From NCBI GenBank assembly GCA_004299845.1, contig CP036201.1, positions 1,798,001-1,862,000 on the forward strand: a DNA stretch of 64,000 nt, read 5' to 3'. This stretch comes from Verrucomicrobia bacterium S94 (GTDB taxonomy: Bacteria > Verrucomicrobiota > Kiritimatiellia > Kiritimatiellales > Pontiellaceae). The notes below the pieces were generated by a model, which saw nothing but the letters and a program-made list of their open reading frames with translations, was not told where the DNA came from and made no database searches. This document shows, piece after piece, positions 1,330 through 60,597 of this stretch. A program made the position numbers and the translations under genes. Position 1 is the first letter of the stretch. The number at the start of each line of letters is the position of its first letter.

Positions 1330-1453
1330 ACCCAATAGATATAACAAGCCACCCTCTAACGCAAAACAACTTCAATCCGCAGGCATCAAACCCTGCCGAT
1401 AAGGCTTGTACCGAAAGCCACATTGCATAAGCTTAATTTTTAAGGAATTTAAA

Positions 1454-2458
1454 ATGGAACTGCTGAAAAATATCCTCAACGAAATCTGGCTCGTCACCAC
1501 AGAAATGGCGCCCTATCTCCTGTTCGGCTTTCTTATGGCGGGTATTCTGTCGCAACTGATCTCGCGTAATTTTGTAAAACGCCATCTCGGCGGCGGAGGA
1601 CTTGCAGGCTCCGTAAAAGCCGCCCTCGTCGGAGTTCCGATGCCCATCTGTTCCTGCGGGGTCATCCCTTTTGCCGCACTGTTGCGCAAGCACGGGGCCA
1701 GCCGTGGCGCCACCGCCTCGTTTCTGTCTTCAACACCACAAACCGGTGTTGATTCGCTGATGGTAACCTACGCCCTGCTCGGCTGGGTTTTCGCGGTATT
1801 CCGCGCTCTGGCAGCTTTTCTTTCCGGCATTCTCTGCGGAATTGCCGTCGAAGCCGTTCCAACCTCTGACAAGGATAAACCGGAGGAAGAGGAAAAAACC
1901 GAGGTAACCGACAAGCGCGATCCAATCCTCCTTCGCATGCTCAGATACGGTTTTATTACCCTGCCCGGAAAAATTGCCCAGGCCATGCTGATCGGCATCG
2001 TGATCTCCGGCGTCATCAGCGGAATTATTCCCGATAACTTTTTCGCCGACCGCCTGGGGCATTCCCCCTTTGCAATGATTCTGATGCTCTTCATCGGCAT
2101 CCCGCTCTATGTCTGCTCCTCAGCCTCGGTTCCGATCGCACTGGCCTTCATTAAAGCCGGCCTTTCCCCGGGAGCCGCCCTCGTCTTTCTCATTACCGGT
2201 CCGGCAACCAATGCAGCCACACTGACTACACTCTGGCAGATCATCGGAAAAAAACAGCTCATCGTCTTTCTCATCACCCTTTCCTTATGTGCTCTGGCAG
2301 CAGGATATATCATGAATTTATTTTCTCCTGCACTGGGTATTCAGGAACAGGTTTGCCACATGCACGAATCGGCTTCCCCCCTGAGCGCTGTATGGACAAT
2401 ACTGCTTCTGGCGGTGTTGATCAAAAGTATCATTCCTTCCCGCTCAAAAAATACGTAA
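1454..2458 (+). CDS. SO_0444/ArsP-type permease (putative metal or organo-metalloid efflux)
   Basis: This is a polytopic inner-membrane permease of 334 residues. It belongs by eye to the DUF318/ArsP_1 group, which includes SO_0444-type Cu/Zn efflux permeases. Visible hallmarks are the paired halves with VPMPICSCGVIPFAALLRK in the first, IPLYVCSSASVPIALAFI in the second, and TGPATNAATLTTLW near the end. The CSC and CSS motifs sit at matching places in the two repeats. A charged cytoplasmic loop (DKDKPEEEEKTEVTDKRD) joins the halves. The start at 1454 is preferred over an upstream ATG at 1406 because it follows TAAGGAA and gives a normal membrane-protein N-terminus. The substrate is not determinable from sequence. 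Confidence 0.8.
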   Translation: MELLKNILNEIWLVTTEMAPYLLFGFLMAGILSQLISRNFVKRHLGGGGLAGSVKAALVGVPMPICSCGVIPFAALLRKHGASRGATASFLSSTPQTGVDSLMVTYALLGWVFAVFRALAAFLSGILCGIAVEAVPTSDKDKPEEEEKTEVTDKRDPILLRMLRYGFITLPGKIAQAMLIGIVISGVISGIIPDNFFADRLGHSPFAMILMLFIGIPLYVCSSASVPIALAFIKAGLSPGAALVFLITGPATNAATLTTLWQIIGKKQLIVFLITLSLCALAAGYIMNLFSPALGIQEQVCHMHESASPLSAVWTILLLAVLIKSIIPSRSKNT

Positions 2459-2568
2459 TTACCTATCCGAAACACGGAATATCAGGGATTGGCTCTAAAA
2501 ATGCGTTGTCGGAACCCCTGTTGTTCCCTATTATAAGAGTGAGTCATGCGTTCTAGGGTTGGAATCGA

Positions 2569-3231
2569 ATGAGTAAGTTGAAATGCAGTATTATGGTCAT
2601 AGATGATCATCCGATTATCCATGACGGGTTGAAAACGTTATTGGCAACCGAGAGCGATATGGAAATATCCAGCACCGCCTCATCGGCTGACGAAGCGCTG
2701 GAAAAATTATCTAACATCAACGTAGATATCGCCATCGTCGATCTGTCACTCGGCGGAACCGATGGCACCTACCTGATTCAGCAGATCAGAAAGCTTTATC
2801 CGGATCTTAAGATTCTGGTTTATACCATGTCTGAAGAAAAGCTCTTTGCAGAGCGTTCGGCCACAGCCGGAGCACATGGTTATGTCATGAAAACTTCTCC
2901 GCCGAATACACTGAAAAAAGCGATTAGGACTGTTTTTTCCGGTGAACTCTATTTTACTGAAGACACGATTAATCGCATCAGAAAAAAATCCGAAGGCTAC
3001 ACAGACGCACCGCGAACGCTGCTCGACAACCTCTCCAACCGGGAAATGGATATTTTCAAACTGATCGGAGAAGGGCTCGATACCGCCCTGATCAGTGAAC
3101 GGCTCAATATCAGTCGAAATACAGTCGACACCCACCGGATTAACATCAAAAACAAACTTGAGCTGCCTAACGGAAAAGCTGTTGAACGCCTGGCCTACGA
3201 AGTCATTCAGCAGGGGCGGATGCCGAACTGA
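2569..3231 (+). CDS. NarL/FixJ-family response regulator (orphan)
   Basis: A two-domain response regulator of 220 residues. The receiver domain (about 1-125) has the acidic pair IDDH at 11-14, the phosphoacceptor Asp58 in IAIVDLS, Thr86 in VYTMS and Lys108 in YVMKTS. The C-terminal LuxR-type HTH (about 150-215) reads LSNREMDIFKLIGEGL, then ISERLNISRNTVDTHRINI. It should bind DNA when phosphorylated by a HisKA_3 (HPK7) kinase. No kinase gene is adjacent. The kinase cluster at 54.8-58.8 kb is of the right type and is a candidate partner by inference. The ATG follows GGAATCGA, a weak ribosome binding site. Confidence 0.9.
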   Translation: MSKLKCSIMVIDDHPIIHDGLKTLLATESDMEISSTASSADEALEKLSNINVDIAIVDLSLGGTDGTYLIQQIRKLYPDLKILVYTMSEEKLFAERSATAGAHGYVMKTSPPNTLKKAIRTVFSGELYFTEDTINRIRKKSEGYTDAPRTLLDNLSNREMDIFKLIGEGLDTALISERLNISRNTVDTHRINIKNKLELPNGKAVERLAYEVIQQGRMPN

Positions 3232-21663: not shown

Positions 21664-23127
21664 CCTGTATTTTATTTGCGCAGGGGACCGCCGGTCTGCC
21701 GCCTATCCTGTATTTGCGAATACGGATGTTTTCAGGGTCGTGATTTCTGCAAAGGCCTGGGGCATATGCAGCTTGATGCGGGTCTTTCCGTTCTCCACAC
21801 GAACGCCGATTTTAAGCAGCTTCAGGCGAATGGTTTTAAATTCTGCGCGACACAGCCGCGTCCCCTTGAGCCGCACGCTGCGCAGGTGATGCATTACGAC
21901 ATAGGCGGCCGAGTGCAGGAACAGGCGAAACTGATTGGCGGTGAAACGGTGGCAGCTCGTGCGGTCCGAGAGCAGGCCGTTCTTGTGATCCTTGATCATC
22001 AGCTCCATGGCCCCGCGACCACAGTAGACCGTCTCGTAAAGATACTTCGCCCCGCTGTTCTCGAACGATGTGACGATGAAGCGCAGATCCTCCCCGTTCG
22101 CATTGACCAGTACCCGGCAGATCACGCGGCGCGCCCGGCTCCAGGTACGGGCCTGATAAAAGGCGGATGCAAAAACACACGCTTCACGGCCGGTACATTC
22201 ATGCTTTTTGCGTGCGTCAGCAAGGGCCTGTGCAAACTGTGCTTTTAAACGCGAGTTCGTCTGGAGTCCGGTGACAAAGTCCACTGATTGTGCCTCCAGC
22301 CAGTCCATGACCACGGGCTTCGTGTGGTGCGAGTCTGCACGGAAGATCAGGCGGGTGCATGGAAAGGCCGCCCGGATACGTTTTACCACCCGCTTGAGTA
22401 CGCTGATAATTTCCCGGTCCGTCGGCGTCTTGCCCGGGCGAAGCACTGTGGTGATCAGCTTCCCGCTGAGTCCGTCGTACAGGTGAAACGGCATGAAGCA
22501 GTATTCATCCTCGAAGGCATTGAACAAGGCCATCTGCTGCCGGCCATGGACATGGTCGGCGGTGGGATCCAGATCAAGCACGATGGCCTCCGGCGCATGA
22601 TCAAACGATGCAATGAACTGATCCACCAAGGCATACCCCATCCGGAGCAGCTCCCGGACAGACACGCGGTTTTCGAGCCGCGACATAGTGGGCTGCGAGG
22701 CGAGCGCACCGTCTTCGGGAAGACGGCCCGCCGCCATTTTGAACAGCGGATCGTCGCGCAAGGCGTCACAATCATTCGCGTCTTCGTAGCCGCAGCAGAT
22801 CCGGACAACACGCTGGGTCAACAACTCCTCCATCGTATGGTCGACATACGACGGATGGCGGGGATCGTGCAACGCCCCGGCGAGCGAGCGGATGATTCCG
22901 GTCTCTTCGAGCACCTCGCGAACAAGCATCAGCCCGCCGTCCGAGCTGACCAGGGGTTCGTCAAAGACAGCCGTGAGTTTACGGTTTTTAAGAGGTGAGA
23001 AAGGGAGCAGTATCTGTTTATCTTTATCCATTGTCGGCCTTGGTTGTTTTTTGCCGGGAAGCAATTCGCAATGTATTCTATTTGCGTGCATTGCGGCAAC
23101 CAAGGCCGTTTTTATGAATAATTCAGG
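21664..23127. mobile_element. IS1380-family insertion sequence (ends tentative)
   Basis: The element contains one transposase on the minus strand. Possible terminal inverted repeats are CCTGTATTTTATTTG at 21664 and, reading inward from the other end at 23127, CCTGAATTATTCAT. They match at 8 of the first 10 positions. The flanks TACC and TTAG are not a clean target duplication, so the exact ends remain uncertain. Confidence 0.5.
21703..23031 (-). CDS. IS1380-family transposase
   Basis: A full-length DDE transposase of about 442 residues from ATG 23031. It opens with SSDGGLMLVREVLEETG and HTMEELLTQRVVRICCGYED, the standard IS1380/DUF1612-type N-terminus. The catalytic region shows IVLDLDPTADHVHG, LIFRADSHHTKPVVMDWLE and the C-terminal HRFTANQFRLFLHSAAYV block. 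An upstream in-frame ATG at 23103 exists, but MDKDKQILLPF is the usual start. No frameshift is seen, so the element may still be active. Confidence 0.9.
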   Translation of the reverse strand: MDKDKQILLPFSPLKNRKLTAVFDEPLVSSDGGLMLVREVLEETGIIRSLAGALHDPRHPSYVDHTMEELLTQRVVRICCGYEDANDCDALRDDPLFKMAAGRLPEDGALASQPTMSRLENRVSVRELLRMGYALVDQFIASFDHAPEAIVLDLDPTADHVHGRQQMALFNAFEDEYCFMPFHLYDGLSGKLITTVLRPGKTPTDREIISVLKRVVKRIRAAFPCTRLIFRADSHHTKPVVMDWLEAQSVDFVTGLQTNSRLKAQFAQALADARKKHECTGREACVFASAFYQARTWSRARRVICRVLVNANGEDLRFIVTSFENSGAKYLYETVYCGRGAMELMIKDHKNGLLSDRTSCHRFTANQFRLFLHSAAYVVMHHLRSVRLKGTRLCRAEFKTIRLKLLKIGVRVENGKTRIKLHMPQAFAEITTLKTSVFANTG

Positions 23128-23735: not shown

Positions 23736-24827
23736 CTAGTGTCCTGATTCATAAATAGGTTTATTTAACTTCGTTCTTGCCCGATTGATTTTTTCCAGGA
23801 TGTCTTTGCCTTTGGCAACCCAGCGATAGGGCTTGGGGTCAGCGTTCCGGGCCAAGATGTATTTTTTTATGCTCGTCTCTAATTTTCTGACGCTTGTGAA
23901 GCTTCCATCACGGATGCACTCACTGGTGATATCGGCAAAGAAACGCTCTACAAGGTTCATCCACGAGCTTGAAGTCGGCGTAAAGTGAACATGAAAGCGG
24001 GGATGCTTTGACAACCATTTGCTTACCTCCTTGTGCTTGTGGGTGCAGTAGTTGTCGACAATCAGATGCAACTCTAATTCTTTCGGGGTCTCCCGGTCGA
24101 TCTGCTTAAGGAAACGCAGCCATTCCGTATGAGTGTGCCTCTGTTCTGTTCGCTCGATTATAGTGCCTTCGATATAGTCGAGGGCTGCGAACAATGTGGT
24201 TGTTCCATGGCGGGTATAATCATGGGTTTTGGTTTGAATGTGACCGACACCCGGCGGAAGACCGGGCTGGGTTCTTTCCAGTGCCTGGCACTGACTCTTC
24301 TCATCGCAGCAAAGCACTAACGCCTTTTCCGGTGGATCGAGATAAAGGCCAATGATATCCCAGAACTTTTCCTCAAATCGGGGATCATTCGACACCTTAA
24401 AGGTTTTGATCAAATGCGGTTTGATCTGGTTGCTGTTCCATATCCGACGAACGCTCGTAGCCGAGATTCCAGACTCCTTGCTCATGCTGCGGGTGCTCCA
24501 GCGGGTCCGCCCTTCGGGAGGTTGCATGGCTTTTGTTATAACCATCTCAACTTTCTCCGGCGGGAGAGAAGGTTTGCGTCCTCGACCGGGAGCATCGCAA
24601 AGCCCATCAAGTCCCTGCTCCAGAAACCGACGGGTCCACTTGGAAACAATCACATGGCTGATATCAAGTTCGGCGGCTACATCCTGTTGTTTTTTACCCT
24701 CGGCCCGCAGCAGTATAATGCGAGCCCGCAAGCAATCTCGCTGGGATGTTTTTCCTGAACGCACTCGACGCTCGAGTTCATTGCGCTCGTCGTCATTGAT
24801 TTCTATTTGAAGAATTGGTCTACCCAT
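23736..24827 (-). CDS. IS630-family transposase
   Basis: An intact DDE transposase of about 363 residues. It has an N-terminal helix-turn-helix (QQDVAAELDISHVIVSKWTR) and the triad in VLCCDEKSQCQALERTQPG, HLIVDNYCTHKHKE and SSWMNLVERFFADITSE. An upstream in-frame ATG at 24839 gives MMVC before MGRP; the start used here is MGRPILQIEIN. The frame runs through the left inverted repeat and its stop codon TAG (23736-23738) uses the flanking target TA. Confidence 0.92.
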   Translation of the reverse strand: MGRPILQIEINDDERNELERRVRSGKTSQRDCLRARIILLRAEGKKQQDVAAELDISHVIVSKWTRRFLEQGLDGLCDAPGRGRKPSLPPEKVEMVITKAMQPPEGRTRWSTRSMSKESGISATSVRRIWNSNQIKPHLIKTFKVSNDPRFEEKFWDIIGLYLDPPEKALVLCCDEKSQCQALERTQPGLPPGVGHIQTKTHDYTRHGTTTLFAALDYIEGTIIERTEQRHTHTEWLRFLKQIDRETPKELELHLIVDNYCTHKHKEVSKWLSKHPRFHVHFTPTSSSWMNLVERFFADITSECIRDGSFTSVRKLETSIKKYILARNADPKPYRWVAKGKDILEKINRARTKLNKPIYESGH

Positions 24828-24883
24828 GCAAACCATCATGCCATAACCTTTTATAATGTAAACTTAATTGCGGCGCACTACAC
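23739..24883. mobile_element. IS630-family insertion sequence
   Basis: A 1145-bp element bounded by TA on both sides (23737-23738 and 24884-24885), the target of IS630/Tc1-type elements. The ends start GTGTCCTG (left, 23739) and GTGTAGTG (right, read inward from 24883). Further similarity follows around AATAGGTTTATTTAA and AATTAAGTTTACATTA. It carries one intact transposase. Confidence 0.82.
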
Positions 24884-48604: not shown

Positions 48605-50213
48605 CAGTCTGTCGGACTTATCTATTTTAGATTTAAGGCACCTACGATAGACTGGTTTAGTCTTAACGGATTAGACTTATGGCTACTCGACTCAAAAACC
48701 TCGACCGCAATACCCCGATGCTTTTACCGCCGGATCTTCGCGACTGGATTCCTCAGAACCACATCGTTCATTTTCTGATTGATGCCGTGGAACGGCTTCC
48801 GAGCGAAAACTTCCACGTCAACCGGCGGGGAACCGGCGACGAGCAGTATCCACCGCGCATGATGCTGACCCTGCTCATCTATTGCTACGCTACAGGCCGC
48901 TTCTCCTCGCGCGTGATTGAGGAGGCATCCTGGTCGGATGTCATCGTTCGTTATATCTGCGGGGGCGACCTGCATCCCGATCACGACACCATCTGCACGT
49001 TCCGCCGTACGAATCGCGAGCTGTTCGAAAAGGCTTTCGTGCAGGTGTTGCTTATGGCGCAGGAGACCGCCGGGCTCAAGAAGGTCGGCACCGTGAGCAT
49101 CGACGGCACCAAAATCAAGGCCAATGCCAGCAGGCACTCCGCCGTCAGCTATAAATACGCAGGCGAGCAGATCGAACTGCTGCGCCGGGAGGTTGAGCAA
49201 CTCACGGCCAAAGCCGAACAAATCGACAACGTTCCGCTCGACGACGGGCTGAGCATTCCAGACGAAATCGTCCGGCGCGAAGACCGAATCAAGAGCTTGG
49301 AGCAAGCCCGCTCCATCATCGAGGAGCGTTACAAAGAAGAACACCTGCAGAAACAAGCGGACTACGAAAAGAAGAAATCCAGGCGCGACGACCAACGTAG
49401 AAATGGACGCAAACCGCGCGGCAAGGAGCCCCAGCCTCCATCGGAAACGCCGCCCGACCACAAGCAGTACAACTTCACCGATCCCGAAAGCCGGATCATG
49501 AAAGCCGGGAACGGAAACCACTTCGAGCAGGCCTATAACGCACAGGCCGCAGTCGATACCGAAACCTATCTGATCGTCGGCCAGCTCGTCACCGACGCAC
49601 CCAACGACAAGCAGCAACTCAACCCCGTGCTCGAAAGCATCCCTGCCGAGGTTGCCGATCCGGAAAACGTTCTTGCCGATACCGGCTACTACAGCGAAGA
49701 CGCCGTCAGGAAAGCGGAGGCCAACGCTGGTCCGAGCGTTTATTGCGCCATGGCCAAAAGTGGACACCACGTCAGCGTCGCCGATCTTGAAAAACAATCC
49801 ATCGCCCTTGCGCCGCCGCCGGACGCATCCGCAAAGGAGCAGATGGCCCACCGCCTCAATACGCCCGAAGGCAAAGCACTCTATAAAAAACGTAAGCAGA
49901 CCGTGGAGCCCGTCTTCGGGATCATCAAGGAAGTCCTCGGCTTCCGCCGGTTCTCTATGCGAGGGAAAGAGAAGGCCGAAACCGAATGGAGCCTCGTCTG
50001 CCTCAGCTACAATCTAAAGAAAATCTTCACCCTATCGGGAAGGTGCGCCCCGGAACGACCGCTCCGAACCGCAAAACAGCACGCCAAGGCCTTGGCGCGA
50101 CCTATTCTCGCGTTTTCCCGGGTTAAATCCTGCATCGAGATGAATTATTTGGCTTCAGCAGAAAAGTCTTTCGTAGTTTTGCAGTCAGGCAGTGTTTTAA
50201 CTCCGACAGGCTG
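48605..50213. mobile_element. IS1182-family insertion sequence with AAAG target duplication
   Basis: The left end CAGTCTGTCGGACTTA (48605-48620) and the right end TAACTCCGACAGGCTG (50198-50213) are inverted repeats matching at 14 of 16 positions. The 4-bp direct repeat AAAG flanks both ends (48601-48604, 50214-50217). The ends are therefore well defined (1609 bp). One intact transposase fills the element. Confidence 0.92.
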
Positions 50214-50214
50214 A
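48679..50214 (+). CDS. IS1182-family transposase
   Basis: A 511-residue DDE transposase. The N-terminal DUF772 part reads YPPRMMLTLLIYCYATGRFS and HPDHDTICTFRRTNRELFEK. The catalytic core has VSIDGTKIKANASRH (first Asp), VLADTGYYSEDAVRKAE (second Asp) and VEPVFGIIKEVLGFRRF (Glu). A charged coiled insert lies at about 175-265. The final TGA (50212-50214) uses two bases of the IS end and the first A of the target duplication. Confidence 0.94.
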   Translation: MATRLKNLDRNTPMLLPPDLRDWIPQNHIVHFLIDAVERLPSENFHVNRRGTGDEQYPPRMMLTLLIYCYATGRFSSRVIEEASWSDVIVRYICGGDLHPDHDTICTFRRTNRELFEKAFVQVLLMAQETAGLKKVGTVSIDGTKIKANASRHSAVSYKYAGEQIELLRREVEQLTAKAEQIDNVPLDDGLSIPDEIVRREDRIKSLEQARSIIEERYKEEHLQKQADYEKKKSRRDDQRRNGRKPRGKEPQPPSETPPDHKQYNFTDPESRIMKAGNGNHFEQAYNAQAAVDTETYLIVGQLVTDAPNDKQQLNPVLESIPAEVADPENVLADTGYYSEDAVRKAEANAGPSVYCAMAKSGHHVSVADLEKQSIALAPPPDASAKEQMAHRLNTPEGKALYKKRKQTVEPVFGIIKEVLGFRRFSMRGKEKAETEWSLVCLSYNLKKIFTLSGRCAPERPLRTAKQHAKALARPILAFSRVKSCIEMNYLASAEKSFVVLQSGSVLTPTG

Positions 50215-50273: not shown

Positions 50274-50480
50274 CTATTTCTTAGAGCATTCTTTCTTGCT
50301 GGAGCACGCTTTTTTGTCAGCGTCGCATTTTTTATCCGCATCTTTTTTGCAGGATTTATCAGCCGAAGCGCATTCTTTCTTCGCTTCTTTTTTGGCCGTG
50401 CAGCCGCAGCTGTCACAAGCAAAAGCGGACGTTCCCGCAACAAACAATGCAACCAGTGCAATACTCAGTACTTTCTTCAT
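50274..50480 (-). CDS. Cys/Lys-rich exported peptide
   Basis: A 68-residue protein. A Sec signal peptide (MKKVLSIALVALFVAGTSAFA) is followed by a 47-residue mature part with eight Cys and about eighteen Lys. It opens CDSCGC and goes on with KEC, KSC, KKC, KAC and KEC at 6-8 residue steps. The composition suggests binding of thiophilic metals or a disulfide-rich peptide; this is inference, and no family is recognised. AAGGAGAG stands 6 nt before the ATG at 50480. A longer frame opens 33 codons upstream without a ribosome binding site. Confidence 0.75.
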   Translation of the reverse strand: MKKVLSIALVALFVAGTSAFACDSCGCTAKKEAKKECASADKSCKKDADKKCDADKKACSSKKECSKK

Positions 50481-50783
50481 GTTGAACTCTCCTTGATTTA
50501 GTTTAACCAACTGAAACAGGTAAGACCCGTTCTGCCGAATTCCGTTCAATAATATTACAAATATTATCGGATTTATCACAAATATCCTGTGATCAGGTTA
50601 AATACAGCAGGATTCCTTCCAATCTCCAGATTTTTTCATATCGCTCCCCGCCGGAAAATCCGGTCACAGCACATCCAATTTTCCCGGCTCCATCGCCTCG
50701 GAATTCCTAGAAATACGAAATACCTCTCATTTTCCGCCTTAAGCAGCGGCACCCGGTCCTCGACCCGTCAAAAGCACTTCCCA
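50481..50783. other. Intergenic region upstream of the Cys/Lys-rich peptide gene
   Basis: These 303 bp hold no supported gene. The part next to the peptide gene is AT-rich and contains the inverted repeat listed separately. The part next to gcvPB shows no clear terminator. Confidence 0.5.
50549..50567. promoter_or_regulatory. Perfect 8-3-8 inverted repeat, possible operator
   Basis: ATAATATT-ACA-AATATTAT is a perfect palindrome with a 3-nt spacer, 69-87 bp upstream of the Cys/Lys-rich peptide start. Its size and position fit a dimeric repressor or activator site. The binding protein is unknown. Confidence 0.45.
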
Positions 50784-52244: not shown

Positions 52245-53594
52245 TTAGGCCTTAAGAGTGCTTTCCAGCTTAGCAACCAAGATATCGATCTCTTCCTTGG
52301 TCCGCTTTTCGGTAAAGGAGAGCAGGAGAACATTGTCCATATCCTCATAATAACGACCGACCGGAAAACCGGCGGCGATGCCCTGATCAATCAAAGCACT
52401 GACCACTTCCGAGGCATCCTTCGGCAGACGCACCGCAAACTCATTAAAAAAACGGCGCTTGAATGCCGGCTCGACGCCGTCGATCTTCGTCAGTCGGTGC
52501 CAGGCGTAGGACGCACGGTCCATACAGTCGCGGCCGACTTCGCGGAAGCCCTCGCGGCCGATGAGCGACAGATAGATAATGGCCCGCAGCGCGCAGAGCT
52601 GCACATTCGAGCAGATATTCGACGTCGCTTTTTCACGACGGATATGCTGCTCGCGCGCCTGCAGCGTCAGCACATAACCGCGACGCCCCTGCGCGTCTTC
52701 GGTTTCACCGACAATACGACCCGGCATTTTACGAACCAGTTTTTTACGGGTGGCCATAAAGCCCAGATACGGTCCTCCGAAGTTGAGCGGAAGCCCGAGG
52801 CTCTGACCTTCTCCGGTCACAATATCCGCTCCCATCGCGCCGGGCGTTTCCACGTGCGACAGCGCCATTGGATAAACCGACAGTATCGCCAGCGCGTTCA
52901 CGGCATGGATTTCCTCGATCAGATCGGAAAGATTGTCGAGACAGCCGAAAAAGTTCGGATGCTGCAGCACCACAGCCCCGACAGAACCGTCGAGCACACC
53001 TTTATAAATTTTCCGATGCGCAATACCGGTCGGAGAAAGTTTTACCTCTTCATAATCGACCGAAAGATTCTGCGTATAACAACGGAGCATTTCGCGATAG
53101 ATCGGGTTCACCCCTTCATCGACCAGCACCTTGTTCCTCCGCGTCTGCCGCAAAGCCATCATGATGCCTTCAATCAGAGCCGTCCCGCCGTCGAACAGAG
53201 AAGCATTAGCGACTTCCATACCGGTCAGCCGGCAGATCGCCGTCTGATATTCAAACGCCGCCTGCAACGTGCCCTGCGAAGCTTCGGGCTGATACGGCGT
53301 GTAGGCGGTATAAAATTCGCCGCGACTCGCCAATGCATTTACGGCCGCCGGAATATAATGATCATAAAAACCCGCTCCGCAGAAATTCACAAGACCGGTT
53401 GCATTTTTTGATGCGATTCTACGGATATGCTGCATCATCTCCATTTCAGAGAGTCCGTTGGGAATATTTAATTCGCCGACTTTCAAATCGTCCGGAATCA
53501 TCTCAAACAGATCATCATAATTTTCAATACCAAGCGCCTCGAACATCGCCTGCTGATCCAGCTCACTCGTTGCGCAGAATGGAGTCTTTTTCAT
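52245..53594 (-). CDS. gcvPA: Glycine dehydrogenase (decarboxylating) subunit 1
   Basis: GcvPA (449 residues) is the non-PLP half of the two-subunit P-protein. It begins TPFCATSELDQQAMFEALG, a normal start for the family, and contains CGAGFYDHYIPAAVNALASR, YTPYQPEASQGTLQAAFEYQ and GEGQSLGLPLNFGGPYLGFM. The ATG overlaps the gcvT stop (ATGA). Confidence 0.95.
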   Translation of the reverse strand: MKKTPFCATSELDQQAMFEALGIENYDDLFEMIPDDLKVGELNIPNGLSEMEMMQHIRRIASKNATGLVNFCGAGFYDHYIPAAVNALASRGEFYTAYTPYQPEASQGTLQAAFEYQTAICRLTGMEVANASLFDGGTALIEGIMMALRQTRRNKVLVDEGVNPIYREMLRCYTQNLSVDYEEVKLSPTGIAHRKIYKGVLDGSVGAVVLQHPNFFGCLDNLSDLIEEIHAVNALAILSVYPMALSHVETPGAMGADIVTGEGQSLGLPLNFGGPYLGFMATRKKLVRKMPGRIVGETEDAQGRRGYVLTLQAREQHIRREKATSNICSNVQLCALRAIIYLSLIGREGFREVGRDCMDRASYAWHRLTKIDGVEPAFKRRFFNEFAVRLPKDASEVVSALIDQGIAAGFPVGRYYEDMDNVLLLSFTEKRTKEEIDILVAKLESTLKA

Positions 53595-54676
53595 GATATC
53601 CTTGCCGTTCCCTCTTTATAAAACGGAAGCTCAACCACTTCGGCGGGAAAACGCCTGCCGCGGATTTCAACATCAAGTATCTTCCCTACTTCGGAATATT
53701 CAGGTTTCACGTACGCCATAGCAACCGCTCTCCCGAGACTCGGAGCGAGCGATCCGCTGGTCACAATGCCGATTTCCCGGTCACCGGAAAATACAGAATT
53801 CCCTTCCCGGGCCGCACGTTTTGAACTGAACTTCAGGCCAACCAGCAGATTCCGCGGAATTTCCAGATCCTGCATCACACGTTTCTTTCCGATAAAATTC
53901 TTGCTTCGATCAATAAACATACCGCGCGACATTTCGACCGGAGATCGTGATTCAGTGAGTTCGTGTCCATAGAGCGCATACCCCATTTCAAGACGAAGCG
54001 TATCGCGGGCACCAAGCCCGCAGGGTTCACAGAAGGGATGGGCCACGAGTTTTTTCCACAGCCGGACAGCAGCCTCGTTCGGCAGATACATTTCATAGCC
54101 CAGTTCACCGGTATAGCCGGTCCGGCTTATAATGGTCGACGCTTCCCATGCCTGAAACTCTCTGAACCGGAAATAGTCAAGCTCCGGAAGCGTGCAGCCG
54201 AACACTTCTTCGAGTACATCGCGCGATTCCGGCCCCTGCACATCCAGTTTCGCGGTTTCGGCAGACAGATCGACAAAAATCGTTTCTGCGGACAGATGAC
54301 GCTGAATCCATTCCGCATCCTTTTCAGCCGTTCCGGCATTCACAACGAGCATATAGCGCATTTCATCCAGCCGGTAACAGGTCAGATCATCAATCACTCC
54401 TCCGGCGTCATTCAGCATGAATCCATAACGGACCTGCCCGATGTTCAAAGACCGGATATTGCAGGTGAGCAGATTTTCCAGATCCCGGAGTGCGGTTTTC
54501 CCGTAAAGTTCAAATTCACCCATGTGGCAGATATCGAATACCGAAGCATGATTCCGGGTATGATCGTGCTCTTCGAGAATACCCGCATACTGAATCGGCA
54601 TATCCCATCCGCCGAATCCACCCATACGGGCGCCTAATTGCTGATGCTGCGCATGCAATGGCGTATTTTTCATCAT
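53591..54676 (-). CDS. gcvT: Aminomethyltransferase (glycine cleavage T-protein)
   Basis: GcvT (361 residues) moves the methylene group from the lipoyl H-protein to tetrahydrofolate. Visible marks are GGWDMPIQYAGILEEHDHTR, CHMGEFELYG, NDAGGVIDDLTCYRL, DVQGPESRDVLEEVFG and RTGYTGELGYEMYLP. The start is set at 54676 (MMKNTPLHAQHQQLGARMGG) because the 42 codons further upstream lie in the divergent promoter region. Only a weak ribosome binding site is present. No gcvH gene lies in this cluster. Confidence 0.92.
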   Translation of the reverse strand: MMKNTPLHAQHQQLGARMGGFGGWDMPIQYAGILEEHDHTRNHASVFDICHMGEFELYGKTALRDLENLLTCNIRSLNIGQVRYGFMLNDAGGVIDDLTCYRLDEMRYMLVVNAGTAEKDAEWIQRHLSAETIFVDLSAETAKLDVQGPESRDVLEEVFGCTLPELDYFRFREFQAWEASTIISRTGYTGELGYEMYLPNEAAVRLWKKLVAHPFCEPCGLGARDTLRLEMGYALYGHELTESRSPVEMSRGMFIDRSKNFIGKKRVMQDLEIPRNLLVGLKFSSKRAAREGNSVFSGDREIGIVTSGSLAPSLGRAVAMAYVKPEYSEVGKILDVEIRGRRFPAEVVELPFYKEGTARIS

Positions 54677-54784
54677 TGCAACACCATACAAAAAGATCTG
54701 AAACGCCGCAAACAAATAGGGTCCTATATAGACTTTCTCACGATTTGCTTTCGTAATAACATGGATCAGATTAATGTGGGTCGA

Positions 54785-55816
54785 ATGAGGATGAATGCGC
54801 ACGGATTAAAATATGCTCTGGCATACAGCTTACTCTGGATCGGTTATATTGCCGCGACCTTTCTACTTTTTCCCCGCTTTAATATTTCATGTATACTTCC
54901 TGTGGTCCCTCTGATCGGACTCGGGGTCTGGTTTTTCGGGGTAACTGCCGGCCTTTGGCTAACCCTGTTTTCCCTGTTTCATAATTTTGTGCTTACGGGA
55001 ATCGTGTATGCGAATCAGATTACGTATTATCAATACACGTTAAGCGGCTGTATCTTAATGATCGCCCTTTCCTATTTTGTCGGCCATCTGCGTACCATCC
55101 AGACTGAATTGAAAATAAAACATGCGGAACTGGACCATCTTGTGAAACTTCGCAGTCGTCAGCTGGATAAGCTGACCTCCGAACTTCTCTCCGAATCGGA
55201 AACCTTCAAAAACCACTTCGGCCAGGAACTCCACGACAGCGTGGGACAGCAGCTCACCGGCATACAGCTGCTGAGTTCATCTGTAACCGAGCAACTGCTG
55301 AAGGAACGAAATCGGAACGCCGCGCTTTCCGATCGCATCCTGTCGCGCGCGGCCAAGGTGCATATACAGATCCGGAAGATTTCACGTATGCTCTTTCCGG
55401 TCAGAATCAGTTCTACCGGCCTTATTCCCGCACTCAACGAACTCTCCTCAACACTGAAGGATATCAAGAAGGCTGAACTTCATATCGACTGCACCAGCAT
55501 TGATCTGACTCTCCAGGAGGACACAGCCCTGCAATTATACCGTATATGTCAGGAAACCACCCTGCACACCATTGATCATTTGAACGCAACACATGTCGAA
55601 ATCAGCATCAGAAAAAGTACGGACTGTATCCGAATACGTATTGCCTATAACGGAAACCGGTCACATCCCGAAAGAACGTCCCCCGATATCGCTCAGCTGA
55701 TTCGCTATCGACTGGCAAGGATTCAAGGGATCCTGCTTCAGGCAGACCTCAATCCGGCACATGCGCTGGAGTTCGAGGTCCCCCTCGATCCTGTATATTC
55801 CGAGGCGGCGGCATGA
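54785..55816 (+). CDS. Four-TM sensor kinase-like protein, H-box intact, ATPase degenerate (K1)
   Basis: A 343-residue member of the HisKA_3 (HPK7) kinase class. Four TM helices (about 8-100) without a sizeable outer domain lead into a coiled coil and the DHp helix GQELHDSVGQQLTGIQLL with His150. The region MLFPVRISSTGLIPALNEL follows, as in active relatives. The ATPase domain has decayed: the N-box reads QETTLHTIDHL with His261 where Asn is needed, the G1 box is AYNGNRSHP and the G2 lid is DIAQLIRYRLARI without glycines. It can probably accept but not make phosphate. An earlier start at 54761 is possible. It is divergent from gcvT and overlaps K2 by 4 bp. Confidence 0.85.
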   Translation: MRMNAHGLKYALAYSLLWIGYIAATFLLFPRFNISCILPVVPLIGLGVWFFGVTAGLWLTLFSLFHNFVLTGIVYANQITYYQYTLSGCILMIALSYFVGHLRTIQTELKIKHAELDHLVKLRSRQLDKLTSELLSESETFKNHFGQELHDSVGQQLTGIQLLSSSVTEQLLKERNRNAALSDRILSRAAKVHIQIRKISRMLFPVRISSTGLIPALNELSSTLKDIKKAELHIDCTSIDLTLQEDTALQLYRICQETTLHTIDHLNATHVEISIRKSTDCIRIRIAYNGNRSHPERTSPDIAQLIRYRLARIQGILLQADLNPAHALEFEVPLDPVYSEAAA

Positions 55817-56820
55817 GAAGCCTGACCACAATCGCATTCTGGACTCTCTTTGCCGGACAATGCATCTTCAGCTTTACCATGTTTGAACAATGGAACTCAA
55901 ATGTATTGATTCCATTCATGATTTTTATCGCCGCAGCCACCTTGCTGTTCGGAAAAAACCAAGCACTTTTGTTTTATCTGCTGATATTTCTCATCCTGAT
56001 CGGCATCTATGAAACTCATGCTGATTCTGTTGTATATTATGAAGATAAAGCCTCCGGCACCGGAATTGCCCTGCTGATCATATTCTCCGTCTCCTATTTA
56101 AAGGAGAAGGTTGACGGCATCCGGGAACTGAACCGGGAGCTAGACAGTCTGGTCAGGAAGCGCGACCGGGAACTGACCCGACTGACTGATGAACTCCTCG
56201 AAAATGCGGAAAACAGGCGCAGGATACTGGGGCAGGAGCTCCATGATGGTATCGGACAGCAGCTCACCGGCATTAAACTGCTCTGTTCCTCTCTGGAACT
56301 TCAGCTGAAGCAGGAATCGACCACTCCGGCCGGACTGGCTCACCAGCTGTCCGAAAAGGCATCAAATGCTCATGATGACATCCGCATGATCGCCCGCACA
56401 CTGTTCCCGGTACGCATTGCACACGTCGGTCTGTATGCCGCAATCGATGAAATGATTGCCTGTTATTCCGAACTGCACCGAAAATACATGCGGGTGATTG
56501 AATGTTCCGACATGCGCAGGATGACCGAACCCCTTGCTCTCCAGCTCTACCGGATGTGCCAGGAATGCTGCACCTTCCTTCTGGAACACAGCAACGCAAA
56601 CTCAATCATCATTACCTTAAGAACCGAAAACGGCTGTTATGTCGTCGAGATCGAACACGACGGACAGGTCAACATAAAGGATGAAACACGCTCCATTTAT
56701 AATCTTATCCGGTACCGGGCCGACAGAATAAAGGGCTCCCTGCGAACAACAGTAAACGATATTTCAAAGCGTTCTGTCATTTATTTTAAAGTTCTGGAGC
56801 CCTTGAATCAAACTCATTAA
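55813..56820 (+). CDS. Four-TM sensor kinase-like protein, H-box intact, ATPase degenerate (K2)
   Basis: 335 residues with the same plan as K1. TM helices occupy about 5-95, a coiled coil follows, and GQELHDGIGQQLTGIKLL carries His144. The N-box is QECCTFLLEHS with Phe255 instead of Asn. G1 keeps only HDG (282-284), and G2 reads SIYNLIRYRA (294-303), where active relatives have GMGLxxMRxRA. The start ATG overlaps the K1 stop (ATGA). Its cytoplasmic half is nearly identical to that of K3, while the membrane half differs. Confidence 0.87.
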   Translation: MRSLTTIAFWTLFAGQCIFSFTMFEQWNSNVLIPFMIFIAAATLLFGKNQALLFYLLIFLILIGIYETHADSVVYYEDKASGTGIALLIIFSVSYLKEKVDGIRELNRELDSLVRKRDRELTRLTDELLENAENRRRILGQELHDGIGQQLTGIKLLCSSLELQLKQESTTPAGLAHQLSEKASNAHDDIRMIARTLFPVRIAHVGLYAAIDEMIACYSELHRKYMRVIECSDMRRMTEPLALQLYRMCQECCTFLLEHSNANSIIITLRTENGCYVVEIEHDGQVNIKDETRSIYNLIRYRADRIKGSLRTTVNDISKRSVIYFKVLEPLNQTH

Positions 56821-56838
56821 TCCTTCAGGCATGAACCG

Positions 56839-57840
56839 GTGATTTGTAGACAACATATTATACTTTCATTAGCGTGGACCGGATATATTGCATTTTCATT
56901 CAGAATGTATCCTGTTTTAAATGTTAATGTTGCAATCCCGAGTTTTGCGCTGGTTGCCATAACATCCTGGATACTCGGCACCAAAGCCGGACTGATTTCC
57001 ACATTGCTCAGTATGATATACCACGCTTATCTACTGAGTTTTCTCTTTAGCGATCAGTTTCTATGCTATCAGACCAAACTCACCAGCCCTTTACTCTATA
57101 TACTGATCTCTTTTACAGCGGGATATCTTCGCCGGAATCATGACGGCATCCGGGAACTGAATCGGGAGCTTGACAGTCTGGTCAGGAAGCGCGACCGGGA
57201 ACTGACCCGACTGACCGATGAACTCCTTGAAAATGCGGAAAACAGGCGCAGGATACTGGGGCAGGAACTCCACGACGGTATCGGACAGCAGCTCACCGGT
57301 ATTAAACTGCTCTGTTCCTCTCTGGAACTTCAGCTGAAGCAGGATCCGGCCACTCCGGCCGGACTGGCTCACCAGCTTTCTGAAAAGGCATCAAATGCTC
57401 ATGATGACATCCGCATGATCGCCCGCACACTGTTCCCGGTACGCATTGCATACGTCGGTCTGTATGCCGCAATCGATGAAATGATTTCCTGTTATGCGGA
57501 ACTGCACCGAAAATACATGCGGGTAATTGACCGCTCTGAAATGCACGGACTGTCCGAGCCTCTCGCCCTTCAGCTCTACCGAATATGCCAGGAATGCTGC
57601 ACCTTCCTTCTGGAATACAGCAATGCAAACACAATCATCATTACCCTGCGATCCGGGAAAGACCGTTATATTGTCAGGATCGAGCACGACGGACAAGTCG
57701 ACATAAAAGACGAAACGCGCTCTATTTACAATCTTATCCGATACCGGGCCGACAGAATAAAAGGCTCCCTGCGGACCGCAGAAAAAGATATCTCAACGCG
57801 TTCTGTCATTTACTTTGAAACCCCAATACCCACACACTGA
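56839..57840 (+). CDS. Four-TM sensor kinase-like protein, H-box intact, ATPase degenerate (K3)
   Basis: 333 residues starting at a GTG (56839). The ATG at 56831 is out of frame and stops at once. Four TM helices lie at about 5-97. Then GQELHDGIGQQLTGIKLL with His145 follows. The ATPase part matches K2 with N-box QECCTFLLEYS (Phe for Asn) and lid SIYNLIRYRA. From about residue 102 to 230 the protein is almost the same as K2, and the DNA there is about 95% identical by eye. The ribosome binding site is weak. Confidence 0.85.
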   Translation: MICRQHIILSLAWTGYIAFSFRMYPVLNVNVAIPSFALVAITSWILGTKAGLISTLLSMIYHAYLLSFLFSDQFLCYQTKLTSPLLYILISFTAGYLRRNHDGIRELNRELDSLVRKRDRELTRLTDELLENAENRRRILGQELHDGIGQQLTGIKLLCSSLELQLKQDPATPAGLAHQLSEKASNAHDDIRMIARTLFPVRIAYVGLYAAIDEMISCYAELHRKYMRVIDRSEMHGLSEPLALQLYRICQECCTFLLEYSNANTIIITLRSGKDRYIVRIEHDGQVDIKDETRSIYNLIRYRADRIKGSLRTAEKDISTRSVIYFETPIPTH

Positions 57841-57847
57841 AACAGAA

Positions 57848-58849
57848 ATGAAAAAATTCGGAATCAAAACCTATCTGGCAACATGGACCCTCTATATTCT
57901 CTTTGCATTCTCCGCCTTTCCACAGCTCACCATAACCGTCATGCTGTTCTCCATTCCCCTGACGATGCTCGGCGGATGGATTTTTCTGTATCGCGGAGCT
58001 CTTATTACCACAGCAATAACCATCCCGGTCCATTTTCTCTTATTGACCACATATTCCAACGACCCTGAACTTATCCTCGAGAGCTTCAACCCCTTCGGCA
58101 TCATTTCCCAACTGATTTTCTCATGCGGAACCGCACTGCTTCGCTCCACCCAACTGGAATACAAACGCCTCAACGAATCTCTGGAGGAAATCGTCCACGA
58201 ACGCACAAAAGACCTGGAAAAACTGACCCAGTATCTGATCGATGCGCAGCAGCTGGAAAGCCGCGAACTTAACGCCAGTTTATTAAAACAACCCTACAGT
58301 GAACTCAAATCCATGCTGGCAACCAGTGAACTTCTAAAACAGCGACTGAAGGAAGCCAACCATCCCCGACTGTCCGATGCGGAAGAAATTTCCAGCATCA
58401 TCAGCTCATGTATCTCACAATTACGGGCTATGGATGAGAATACGCTGAACACCATGCCCCACGGTGAAGACCTTAGAACCAGCCTTGAAAATCTAAAAAA
58501 ACAAAGTGAACAGCTTTATGACGTGGAATTCAGAATCGAAGACCATCCCGCCTGGGCAACGATAGACGACAGCAAAATACGCTTTCTCAGCGAAATCATT
58601 TTCGAAGCGGTATCCAATGCCCTCCGTCATGCCGACCCCAAACAGATCATCGTCGGCATCATGCAGGATTCCTCGGCAACAACCGTATTCATCGAAAATG
58701 ACGGAAAACCGTTCTCATTCACTACCCGGGAAGGAATGGGACTTCCGCTCATGCGGTTTCGTGCTTCAAAAATCGGAGCAGAACTATCCATCGACCCTTC
58801 ACATACACTTTCCACCCGGGTTACATGTAAATTCGCGTCAAATAAGTAG
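57848..58849 (+). CDS. Four-TM sensor kinase-like protein, ATPase intact, His replaced by Asn (K4)
   Basis: 333 residues with the same membrane plan (four TM, about 8-98) and coiled coil. At the H-box the sequence is SRELNASLLKQPYSEL, with Asn142 where the family has His (RELHD). In contrast the ATPase domain looks functional: N-box FEAVSNALRHAD (Asn257), G1 IENDGKPF and G2 lid GMGLPLMRFRASKIGA. It could supply the kinase activity for K1-K3 in mixed dimers. ATG 57848 is taken as start; an in-frame ATG at 57815 overlaps K3. The gene ends 56 bp before cstA. Confidence 0.87.
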   Translation: MKKFGIKTYLATWTLYILFAFSAFPQLTITVMLFSIPLTMLGGWIFLYRGALITTAITIPVHFLLLTTYSNDPELILESFNPFGIISQLIFSCGTALLRSTQLEYKRLNESLEEIVHERTKDLEKLTQYLIDAQQLESRELNASLLKQPYSELKSMLATSELLKQRLKEANHPRLSDAEEISSIISSCISQLRAMDENTLNTMPHGEDLRTSLENLKKQSEQLYDVEFRIEDHPAWATIDDSKIRFLSEIIFEAVSNALRHADPKQIIVGIMQDSSATTVFIENDGKPFSFTTREGMGLPLMRFRASKIGAELSIDPSHTLSTRVTCKFASNK

Positions 58850-58905: not shown

Positions 58906-60597
58906 ATGAATTCACTGGTTATTGCAGCTGTAGCTGCCGTTCTATACATCATCGCATATTATACTTACGGACGCTTTCTGGGCCGTAAAATTTTCAGAGT
59001 CGATCCCACGGCCAAATGCCCCAGCGAAACCCATCACGACGGCATCGATTTTGTAGCCACCGACAAAACCGTCCTTTTCGGACACCATTTCACCTCCATC
59101 GCCGGTACCGGCCCCATTGTCGGCCCGGCAATTGCCGTCATCTGGGGATGGGTTCCCGCACTGATCTGGATTCTGGTCGGCTCTATCTTCATGGGAGCCG
59201 TCCACGACTTCGGATCCATGATGATTTCATTGCGCCATGAAGGCCGCACCATCGGCGACATCGCCGGAACCGTGATCAATCCTCGCGTAAAATCACTCTT
59301 CATGCTCATCATCTTTTTTGCGCTATGGCTCGTCATCGCCATATTCGGCGTCGTCATCGCCGCGGTTTTTGCCATTTTTCCTAAATCGGTTATTCCGGTA
59401 TGGCTGCAGCTGCCTATTGCCGTCTGGCTCGGATTCATGGTGTACAAAAAAGGGAAATCGCATATCACCTACGGTATCATCGCAACAATTCTCATGTATG
59501 CCACCATTGTTCTCGGTGCCGCTTTTCCGATCAATATGCCTGACGCCTTCGGCATGAGCAGTGTCGGTATCTGGGTGATTGCCCTGCTGATCTATGCCTA
59601 CGTGGCCTCCACCCTCCCCGTCACCGTACTGCTGCAGCCGCGCGACTATATCAATGCTTTCCAGCTCTGCATCGCAATGGGATTGCTGCTTCTGGGCATC
59701 ATCGTAACCCATCCGCCCATGATTGCTCCTCCCACCAATCTCGATGCCGAAGGCGCCCCCTCCCTTTTCCCCATTCTTTTCATCACCGTGGCCTGCGGCG
59801 CCATTTCCGGGTTCCACTGTCTGGTCTCCTCCGGCACCTCATCCAAACAATGCGATGCCGAAACCAGCGCCCAGCCGATCAGTTACGGCGGCATGCTGCT
59901 CGAGGGCATGCTGGCCATCATCGTTATCATCGCCTGCGCCGCCGGAATCGGGCTCGGCCTGGAAAAAGACGGCACCCTCTACACCGGGGTTGCCGCCTTC
60001 AATCACCAGTATTCCAGCTGGGCCGCCGCCGGCGGGCTGGGCGCTAAAATCGAAGCCTTTGTGACCGGGGCCTCCAACATGATCTCCGGCATCGGCCTGC
60101 CCAGAGACGTTGTACTGACCCTCATGGGTGTTTTTGTTGCCTCCTTTGCCGCCACCACACTTGACACCGCCACACGCCTTCAGCGTTACATTATTTCCGA
60201 AATCGCCGAAACCGTGAACGTTCCGGCCATCGGGAAAACACACCCCGCCACCTTTATCGCCGTAGCCACAGCTCTCGCCCTTGCTTTCTCCAGCGGCGGC
60301 GGGAAAGGTGCTCTCGCACTATGGCCGCTCTTCGGCGCCGTCAATCAGCTGCTCGGCGGCCTCGCCCTGCTGGTCGTTACCGTCTGGCTCGCCCGCAAAA
60401 AAATAAACATCATCTTCACCGCTCTCCCCATGGTCTTTATGATTGCCATGACGGTATGGGGCATGAGCATTAATCTTCTCTCCTATTACACCGGCGAAAA
60501 GTGGTTGCTATTCGTCATCGGAAGCATCATCACCGTTCTCCAGACCTGGATGATCATCGAAGGTATCGTCGTACTCGCCAAACTCAGACGAAATTAG
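58906..60597 (+). CDS. cstA: Carbon starvation protein CstA-type transporter
   Basis: A 563-residue polytopic transporter of the CstA family, whose E. coli members take up pyruvate or peptides. Family marks are [80 protein letters not shown] and [16 protein letters not shown]. It is shorter than E. coli CstA (about 700), as many bacterial homologues are. It directly follows the kinase cluster on the same strand, which suggests a shared regulatory theme. Confidence 0.94.

Follow-up and report, generated by a model that had tools for sequence, protein, structure and literature searches.

Histidine kinases are usually homodimers that perform all of their functions themselves. DesK is a membrane sensor that works with a NarL-type regulator, and DesK/DesR and VraS, both of the HisKA_3 class, are the closest solved structures for both halves of the split pair described here, from which they differ in carrying every function in one homodimeric protein. 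Two neighbouring kinases of Mycobacterium tuberculosis, Rv0600c and Rv0601c, are said to divide the ATP-binding and acceptor roles between them and to share one regulator; they belong to another kinase class than the proteins reported here and, to our knowledge, form a single pair, and we know of no conserved one-to-many layout for Rv0600c/Rv0601c-TcrA. That these kinases cooperate has been stated (PMC9274095). In Rhodobacter sphaeroides, the acceptor and the catalytic ATPase lie on two proteins, CheA3 and CheA4, of which the acceptor half is also the phosphatase and neither works alone (PMC3591291). According to theory, the response of a split bifunctional kinase can show ultrasensitivity or bistability, and about 3.7% of HisKA proteins have no recognisable ATPase domain (PMC3591291). 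Another split kinase with a response regulator, Hik36/Hik43 of Synechocystis, is of the CheA-like (PilL) type, with an HPt domain and a CheA body, and its genes are not all together (PMC7656254). The kinase descendants Spo0B, ChpT and PhyT keep the acceptor histidine beside a dead ATPase domain, are fed by receiver domains, and have no acceptor-less kinase next door (PMC5898713). Split histidine kinases are already known, in other words, a precedent that the original prediction for our locus had overlooked.

Here we describe four consecutive genes, K1 to K4, which we read as a split kinase of the DesK/NarL-type (HisKA_3) class, with K4 phosphorylating K1, K2 and K3 in heterodimers. We hold this reading with good confidence, short of certainty, since the heterodimer, the transphosphorylation and the pairing with a regulator are all inferred, without biochemistry. 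Like CheA3/CheA4, the four proteins place acceptor and catalytic ATPase on separate chains, the acceptor half would double as phosphatase, and neither half is expected to work alone; like Hik36/Hik43, they would form a split kinase whose likely regulator is encoded elsewhere. However, CheA3/CheA4 are cytoplasmic, have the CheA architecture (P1-P5) and pair one acceptor with each catalyst through domain loss, whereas K1-K4 are HisKA_3 membrane sensors that keep the full domain layout, have lost motifs, and reach up to three acceptors per catalyst. Hik36/Hik43 also differ in not being HisKA_3-class membrane sensors. The P1-P5 layout is not met at this locus, where Pfam gives HisKA_3 or HATPase_c only and no CheA domains. 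What sets the locus apart is the HisKA_3 class, the membrane sensors on both sides, the loss of motifs instead of whole domains, the strict conservation across a family, and the one-to-many layouts. No split kinase of the HisKA_3 class turned up in a literature search; subscription papers were mostly outside its coverage, and absence remains unproven.

The genes lie head to tail on the forward strand at 54785-58849 of the window, by which we mean the whole 64,000-nucleotide stretch of DNA that was analysed, part of a single-contig 4.1 Mb genome whose nearest named relatives belong to the Pontiellaceae/Kiritimatiellales and include Pontiella sulfatireligans F21. K1 (54785..55816, 343 aa), K2 (55813..56820, 335 aa, joined to K1 by an ATGA overlap) and K3 (56839..57840, 333 aa, with a GTG start and an 18-nt gap after K2) are acceptor-type (H-type) membrane sensors, and K4 (57848..58849, 333 aa, after a 7-nt gap) is their catalytic-type (A-type) partner. 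The original prediction had these coordinates and this packing right, and it numbered the acceptor histidines correctly as His150 of K1 (codon 55232-55234), His144 of K2 (56242-56244) and His145 of K3 (57271-57273). Its statement that all three proteins have lost the N-box asparagine, in place of which stand His261, Phe255 and Phe256, together with the glycine lid, was likewise borne out. Pfam scores HisKA_3 above the cut-off in K1-K3, where HATPase_c is matched only in part and below threshold. In K4 it detects no HisKA_3, and the HATPase_c match (E 4e-5) falls 2 bits short of the curated cut-off.

The acceptor position of K4 was set by a gapless alignment of the coiled coil and the first DHp helix (LTDELL...LHDGIGQQL against LTQYLI...LLKQPYSEL). 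The asparagine that had been proposed to replace the histidine, in the motif RELN, is Asn142 and lies 4 residues out of register; the residue at the acceptor position is Leu146 (58283-58285), and across the A-type proteins that position holds Leu, Ile, Tyr or Cys. The N-box and the lid of K4 had also been described as intact. The N-box Asn257 (58616-58618) and the glycine lid (Gly296/Gly298, 58733-58741) are indeed present, but the G1 box reads N-D-G-x-P and is non-canonical, with Asn284 (58697-58699) for Asp and Pro for the second Gly. A HisKA_3 domain with its acceptor histidine, the mark of the DesK/NarL-type class, is found in K1-K3 and in 26/26 H-type proteins and not in K4. No protein of the four joins a functional HATPase_c to HisKA_3, the former being lost in K1-K3 and kept in K4 without the acceptor. 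The four-TM plan thought to be common to all four fits the AlphaFold helices of K3 and K4, but simple hydropathy gives only 2-4 TM segments per protein.

When K4 and K1 were used as queries against 29 genomes of the window's family, the Pontiellaceae, the cluster was present in 20. Both genes could be read in one stretch in 18 genomes besides the window's own, and the pair of G014 is split over two contigs; in G004, all that is seen of the cluster is part of an H-type gene at the end of a contig. Every intact cluster has exactly one A-type gene directly downstream of 1-3 H-type genes, and its position is conserved, between gcvT and, usually, cstA. The idea that one catalytic subunit serves several sensors can apply only to the five of these 20 genomes with two or three intact H-type genes (G000, G002, G003, G019 and G020), as the others have a 1:1 pair.

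The division of motifs was tabulated for 26 full-length H-type and 20 A-type proteins from these 20 genomes, with 38 control kinases (13 from the same genus and 25 more distant). The acceptor histidine is present in 26/26 H-type and 0/20 A-type proteins, the lid glycine in 0/26 and 20/20, and the N-box asparagine in 2/26 and 20/20; the controls have the histidine and the asparagine in 38/38 and the lid glycine in 37/38. Pfam separates the two sides in the same way: HisKA_3 is recognised in all 26 H-type proteins and HATPase_c in only one, and HATPase_c in 19/19 A-type proteins and HisKA_3 in only one (E 0.009). The complementary loss of motifs is real and more than chance, and the requirement for a split kinase, that the acceptor histidine and the ATPase motifs reside on separate, conserved, co-inherited proteins, is met. 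It had been stated in advance that an orthologous cluster containing a member with all motifs, or a conserved alternative histidine in K4, would refute the proposal. No such member exists among the 20 genomes, in none of which does an A-type protein retain the acceptor motif. A conserved alternative acceptor in K4 was rejected as well, as no conserved histidine lies near the acceptor site of the A-type proteins and the only fully conserved one is the N-box His261. Searches of the phylum (289 genomes) and the order (43 genomes) recognised no split pair outside the family, with the proviso that distant sensors would be missed; matches there cover almost only the transmitter part and not the four-TM region. 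Within the sampled genomes, the system looks confined to the Pontiellaceae.

The H-type proteins have kept more than their histidine: 25/26 also have both the D and the Q that belong to the HDxxxQ phosphatase motif. Since the H-type keeps this motif and the A-type has lost the acceptor motif, we expect the former to be phosphodonor and phosphatase and the latter to be kinase only. AlphaFold models of K3 and K4 (pLDDT 82.8 and 79.7) both match DesK and the ATPase domain of VraS, from which we infer that the ATPase domain of K3 keeps its fold despite the lost motifs; residual nucleotide binding by H-type proteins cannot be excluded. An acceptor histidine, DxxxQ and an ATPase-like domain that is folded yet dead are also what a phosphotransferase would have, and degenerate kinases of that sort exist (PMC5898713). 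K1-K3 could, like Spo0B, ChpT or PhyT, be given phosphate by a receiver domain, or serve solely to dephosphorylate a regulator, and never receive it from K4, which would then have a separate role such as tuning through heterodimers. We think this unlikely. A phosphorelay needs an upstream receiver, and the cluster contains no receiver gene, although distant donors are not excluded; one genome, G018, has one NarL-type regulator and one HisKA_3 protein, in a count that does not include receivers of other families. A phosphotransferase leaves unexplained why an ATPase-intact, acceptor-less homologue that co-evolves with the H-type proteins is always the next gene. Unlike Spo0B, ChpT and PhyT, K1-K3 have four TM helices and K4 as a constant neighbour.

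A weak point of the split-kinase reading is the G1 box of K4. Its asparagine is found in 19/19 full-length A-type proteins, as against Asp in 37/38 control kinases, and it allows K4 to be seen as a weak or dead pseudokinase that merely modulates K1-K3, the signalling partner being a complete kinase elsewhere. Against such a role, no A-type protein departs from the N-box asparagine, the lid glycine pair or the first G1 glycine, K4 is under the tightest constraint in the cluster (dN/dS 0.085), and the same asparagine occurs in the working kinases VanS and ThkA; we regard it as very improbable. VanS combines the Asp to Asn change with loss of the second glycine in the G1 box and binds ATP with low-millimolar affinity, and in ThkA an Asn-adenine contact has been observed (PMC10017428). 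With these precedents, the possibility that the asparagine leaves K4 unable to bind ATP was rejected (PMC10017428). Because VanS carries the same two changes and ThkA makes this contact, K4 should still be active and may bind ATP weakly; its affinity may be low, judging from an asparagine where the adenine-binding aspartate should be.

Selection and co-inheritance bear on whether the cluster has a joint function at all. Between G000 and G002, dN/dS is 0.19 for K1, 0.18 for K3 and lowest for K4; for the dead ATPase domains in K1 and K3 the values are 0.23-0.29, relaxed yet not free. Both halves are under purifying selection. The H-type and A-type distance matrices show a correlation of 0.91, or 0.88 with gcvT distances removed, and 0/2000 permutations reached as high; as a sign that the two proteins form a complex, such co-evolution is indirect. 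This comparison relies on gcvT as its only control because the cstA distances ran against both halves and were unusable, which suggests that the cstA copies in it are mixed or badly framed. In a tree of the transmitter parts, H-type and A-type proteins stand apart from canonical kinases and the H-type forms one group (89/86); a single origin of the A-type is not ruled out by this tree. Decay of copies does occur in the family, with a truncated K2 orthologue in G002 and a truncated H-type copy in G021, and the whole cluster might be thought a set of degenerating duplicates without joint function. Yet at least one intact H-type and at least one intact A-type gene are present in 19/19 fully read clusters, under purifying selection and with complementary motifs, so ordinary decay is already contradicted and we give it next to no credence.

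That K4 supplies catalysis and K1-K3 the acceptor is the supported best fit to these data, inferred and not shown. What the sequences do establish is that the motifs are complementary, that they are conserved, linked and inherited together, and that a regulator co-occurs with them. In the mechanism that we propose, K4-type proteins would bind ATP as the sole catalytic subunit, and K1-K3, with their phosphoacceptor histidine and DxxxQ residues, would serve as both phosphodonors and phosphatases. A K1-type sensor and K4, which both have a coiled coil and four TM helices, would heterodimerise through the coiled coil and DHp, and the ATPase domain of K4 would phosphorylate the histidine of its partner. 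From the partner, the phosphate would pass to a NarL-type regulator, for which the orphan at 2569-3231 is the likeliest candidate; when not engaged by K4, the partner would dephosphorylate that regulator. As the division is kept in all 20 genomes with the cluster, the sensors probably work only together with a K4-type partner.

The orphan regulator (2569..3231, forward strand, Response_reg + GerE) is not adjacent to K1-K4 and lies about 52 kb from K1. Its orthologues share 55-86% identity and score at least 248 bits, against at most 141 bits for the next group. They are present in 20/20 genomes with the pair and absent from 6/9 others (Fisher p about 2e-4, uncorrected for shared ancestry); the remaining occurrences are in G004, with its H-type fragment only, and in the incomplete G010 and G024, in which no pair was detected. 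The one HisKA_3 protein of G018 is H-type, and the single clear NarL-type regulator of that genome is orthologous to 2569-3231; a second GerE match is a partial domain only and resembles a separate group found in several genomes. G008, G015, G023 and G014 each have two HisKA_3 proteins and two NarL-type regulators, and since the other kinase and regulator sit side by side, the H-type is left with the orphan. The regulator at 2569-3231 is thus the likely target of K1-K3, a pairing reached by elimination in draft genomes and without biochemistry. In most genomes that have it, the regulator gene sits behind an ArsP_1-family permease gene (1406-3231 for the two), and this permease may be a second target. 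The nearest complete kinase of the genome (L091:7824-9967; 483 aa, HisKA_3, all motifs) adjoins a NarL-type regulator of its own and is conserved in many relatives.

In genomes with more than one H-type sensor, a single K4 would be shared among them. Truncated remnants of H-type genes, a 167-aa K2 orthologue in the nearest relative G002 (L069:10660-11160) and an additional 96-aa fragment in G021, indicate that acceptor copies are gained and lost and that K4 stays single. The DNA of K2 and K3 (55813-57840) is about 95% identical over the stretch that runs from the coiled-coil end through DHp, and shows no relationship between the two TM regions; this fits a recent swap in which gene conversion or fusion placed different sensor domains on a common transmitter. 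We lean slightly towards a hub with one catalyst and many sensors, in which K4, itself a sensor, would phosphorylate two or three different acceptor sensors, forming an AND gate of two membrane sensors, and new inputs would arise through sensor domains duplicated or swapped on a shared transmitter, as K2/K3 suggest. The increase from a single acceptor sensor to three for one catalyst shows how a bacterial pathway could acquire further inputs while its number of kinases stays the same. A natural pair with the full layout in both halves, in which the ATP half is cleanly separated from the acceptor half, opens cis/trans phosphorylation, heterodimer specificity and the division between kinase and phosphatase to direct testing in a DesK-like kinase.

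What the sensors perceive can only be guessed from the neighbourhood. A cstA-family transporter gene (carbon starvation / pyruvate) follows K4 on the forward strand after 56 nt (58906..60597) and is a conserved neighbour in most clusters. By analogy with BtsS-BtsT of E. coli, the operon might sense carbon supply, for example pyruvate, and control cstA, a guess that rests on this analogy and the conserved neighbourhood alone and that we consider possible and somewhat doubtful. The cluster does not belong to the BtsS/LytS class of pyruvate sensors, which control CstA-family transporters with a LytS-type kinase and a LytTR regulator; it has a HisKA_3 kinase and a GerE regulator instead. On the other side lies the divergent conserved neighbour gcvT (53591..54802 on the reverse strand as the longest ORF, with a start likely near 54673), followed by gcvPA/gcvPB. 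Between gcvT and the first H-type gene, a conserved block of about 60 nt at 54672-54745 (CGCCGCAAnnGGAATTTGATCTTATTAG, forward strand) recurs in most clusters and is probably the gcvT 5' region; Rfam gave no match for the block or the region upstream of the cluster, where a search for a conserved dyad also came up empty. Further out, the reverse-strand ORF at 50274-50579 encodes a small, secreted-looking protein of about 70-100 aa, rich in Cys and Lys and without an NCBIfam match, and the window carries three insertion-sequence transposases, of the IS1182, IS1380 and IS630 families, at 48679-50214, 21703-23103 and 23736-24839.
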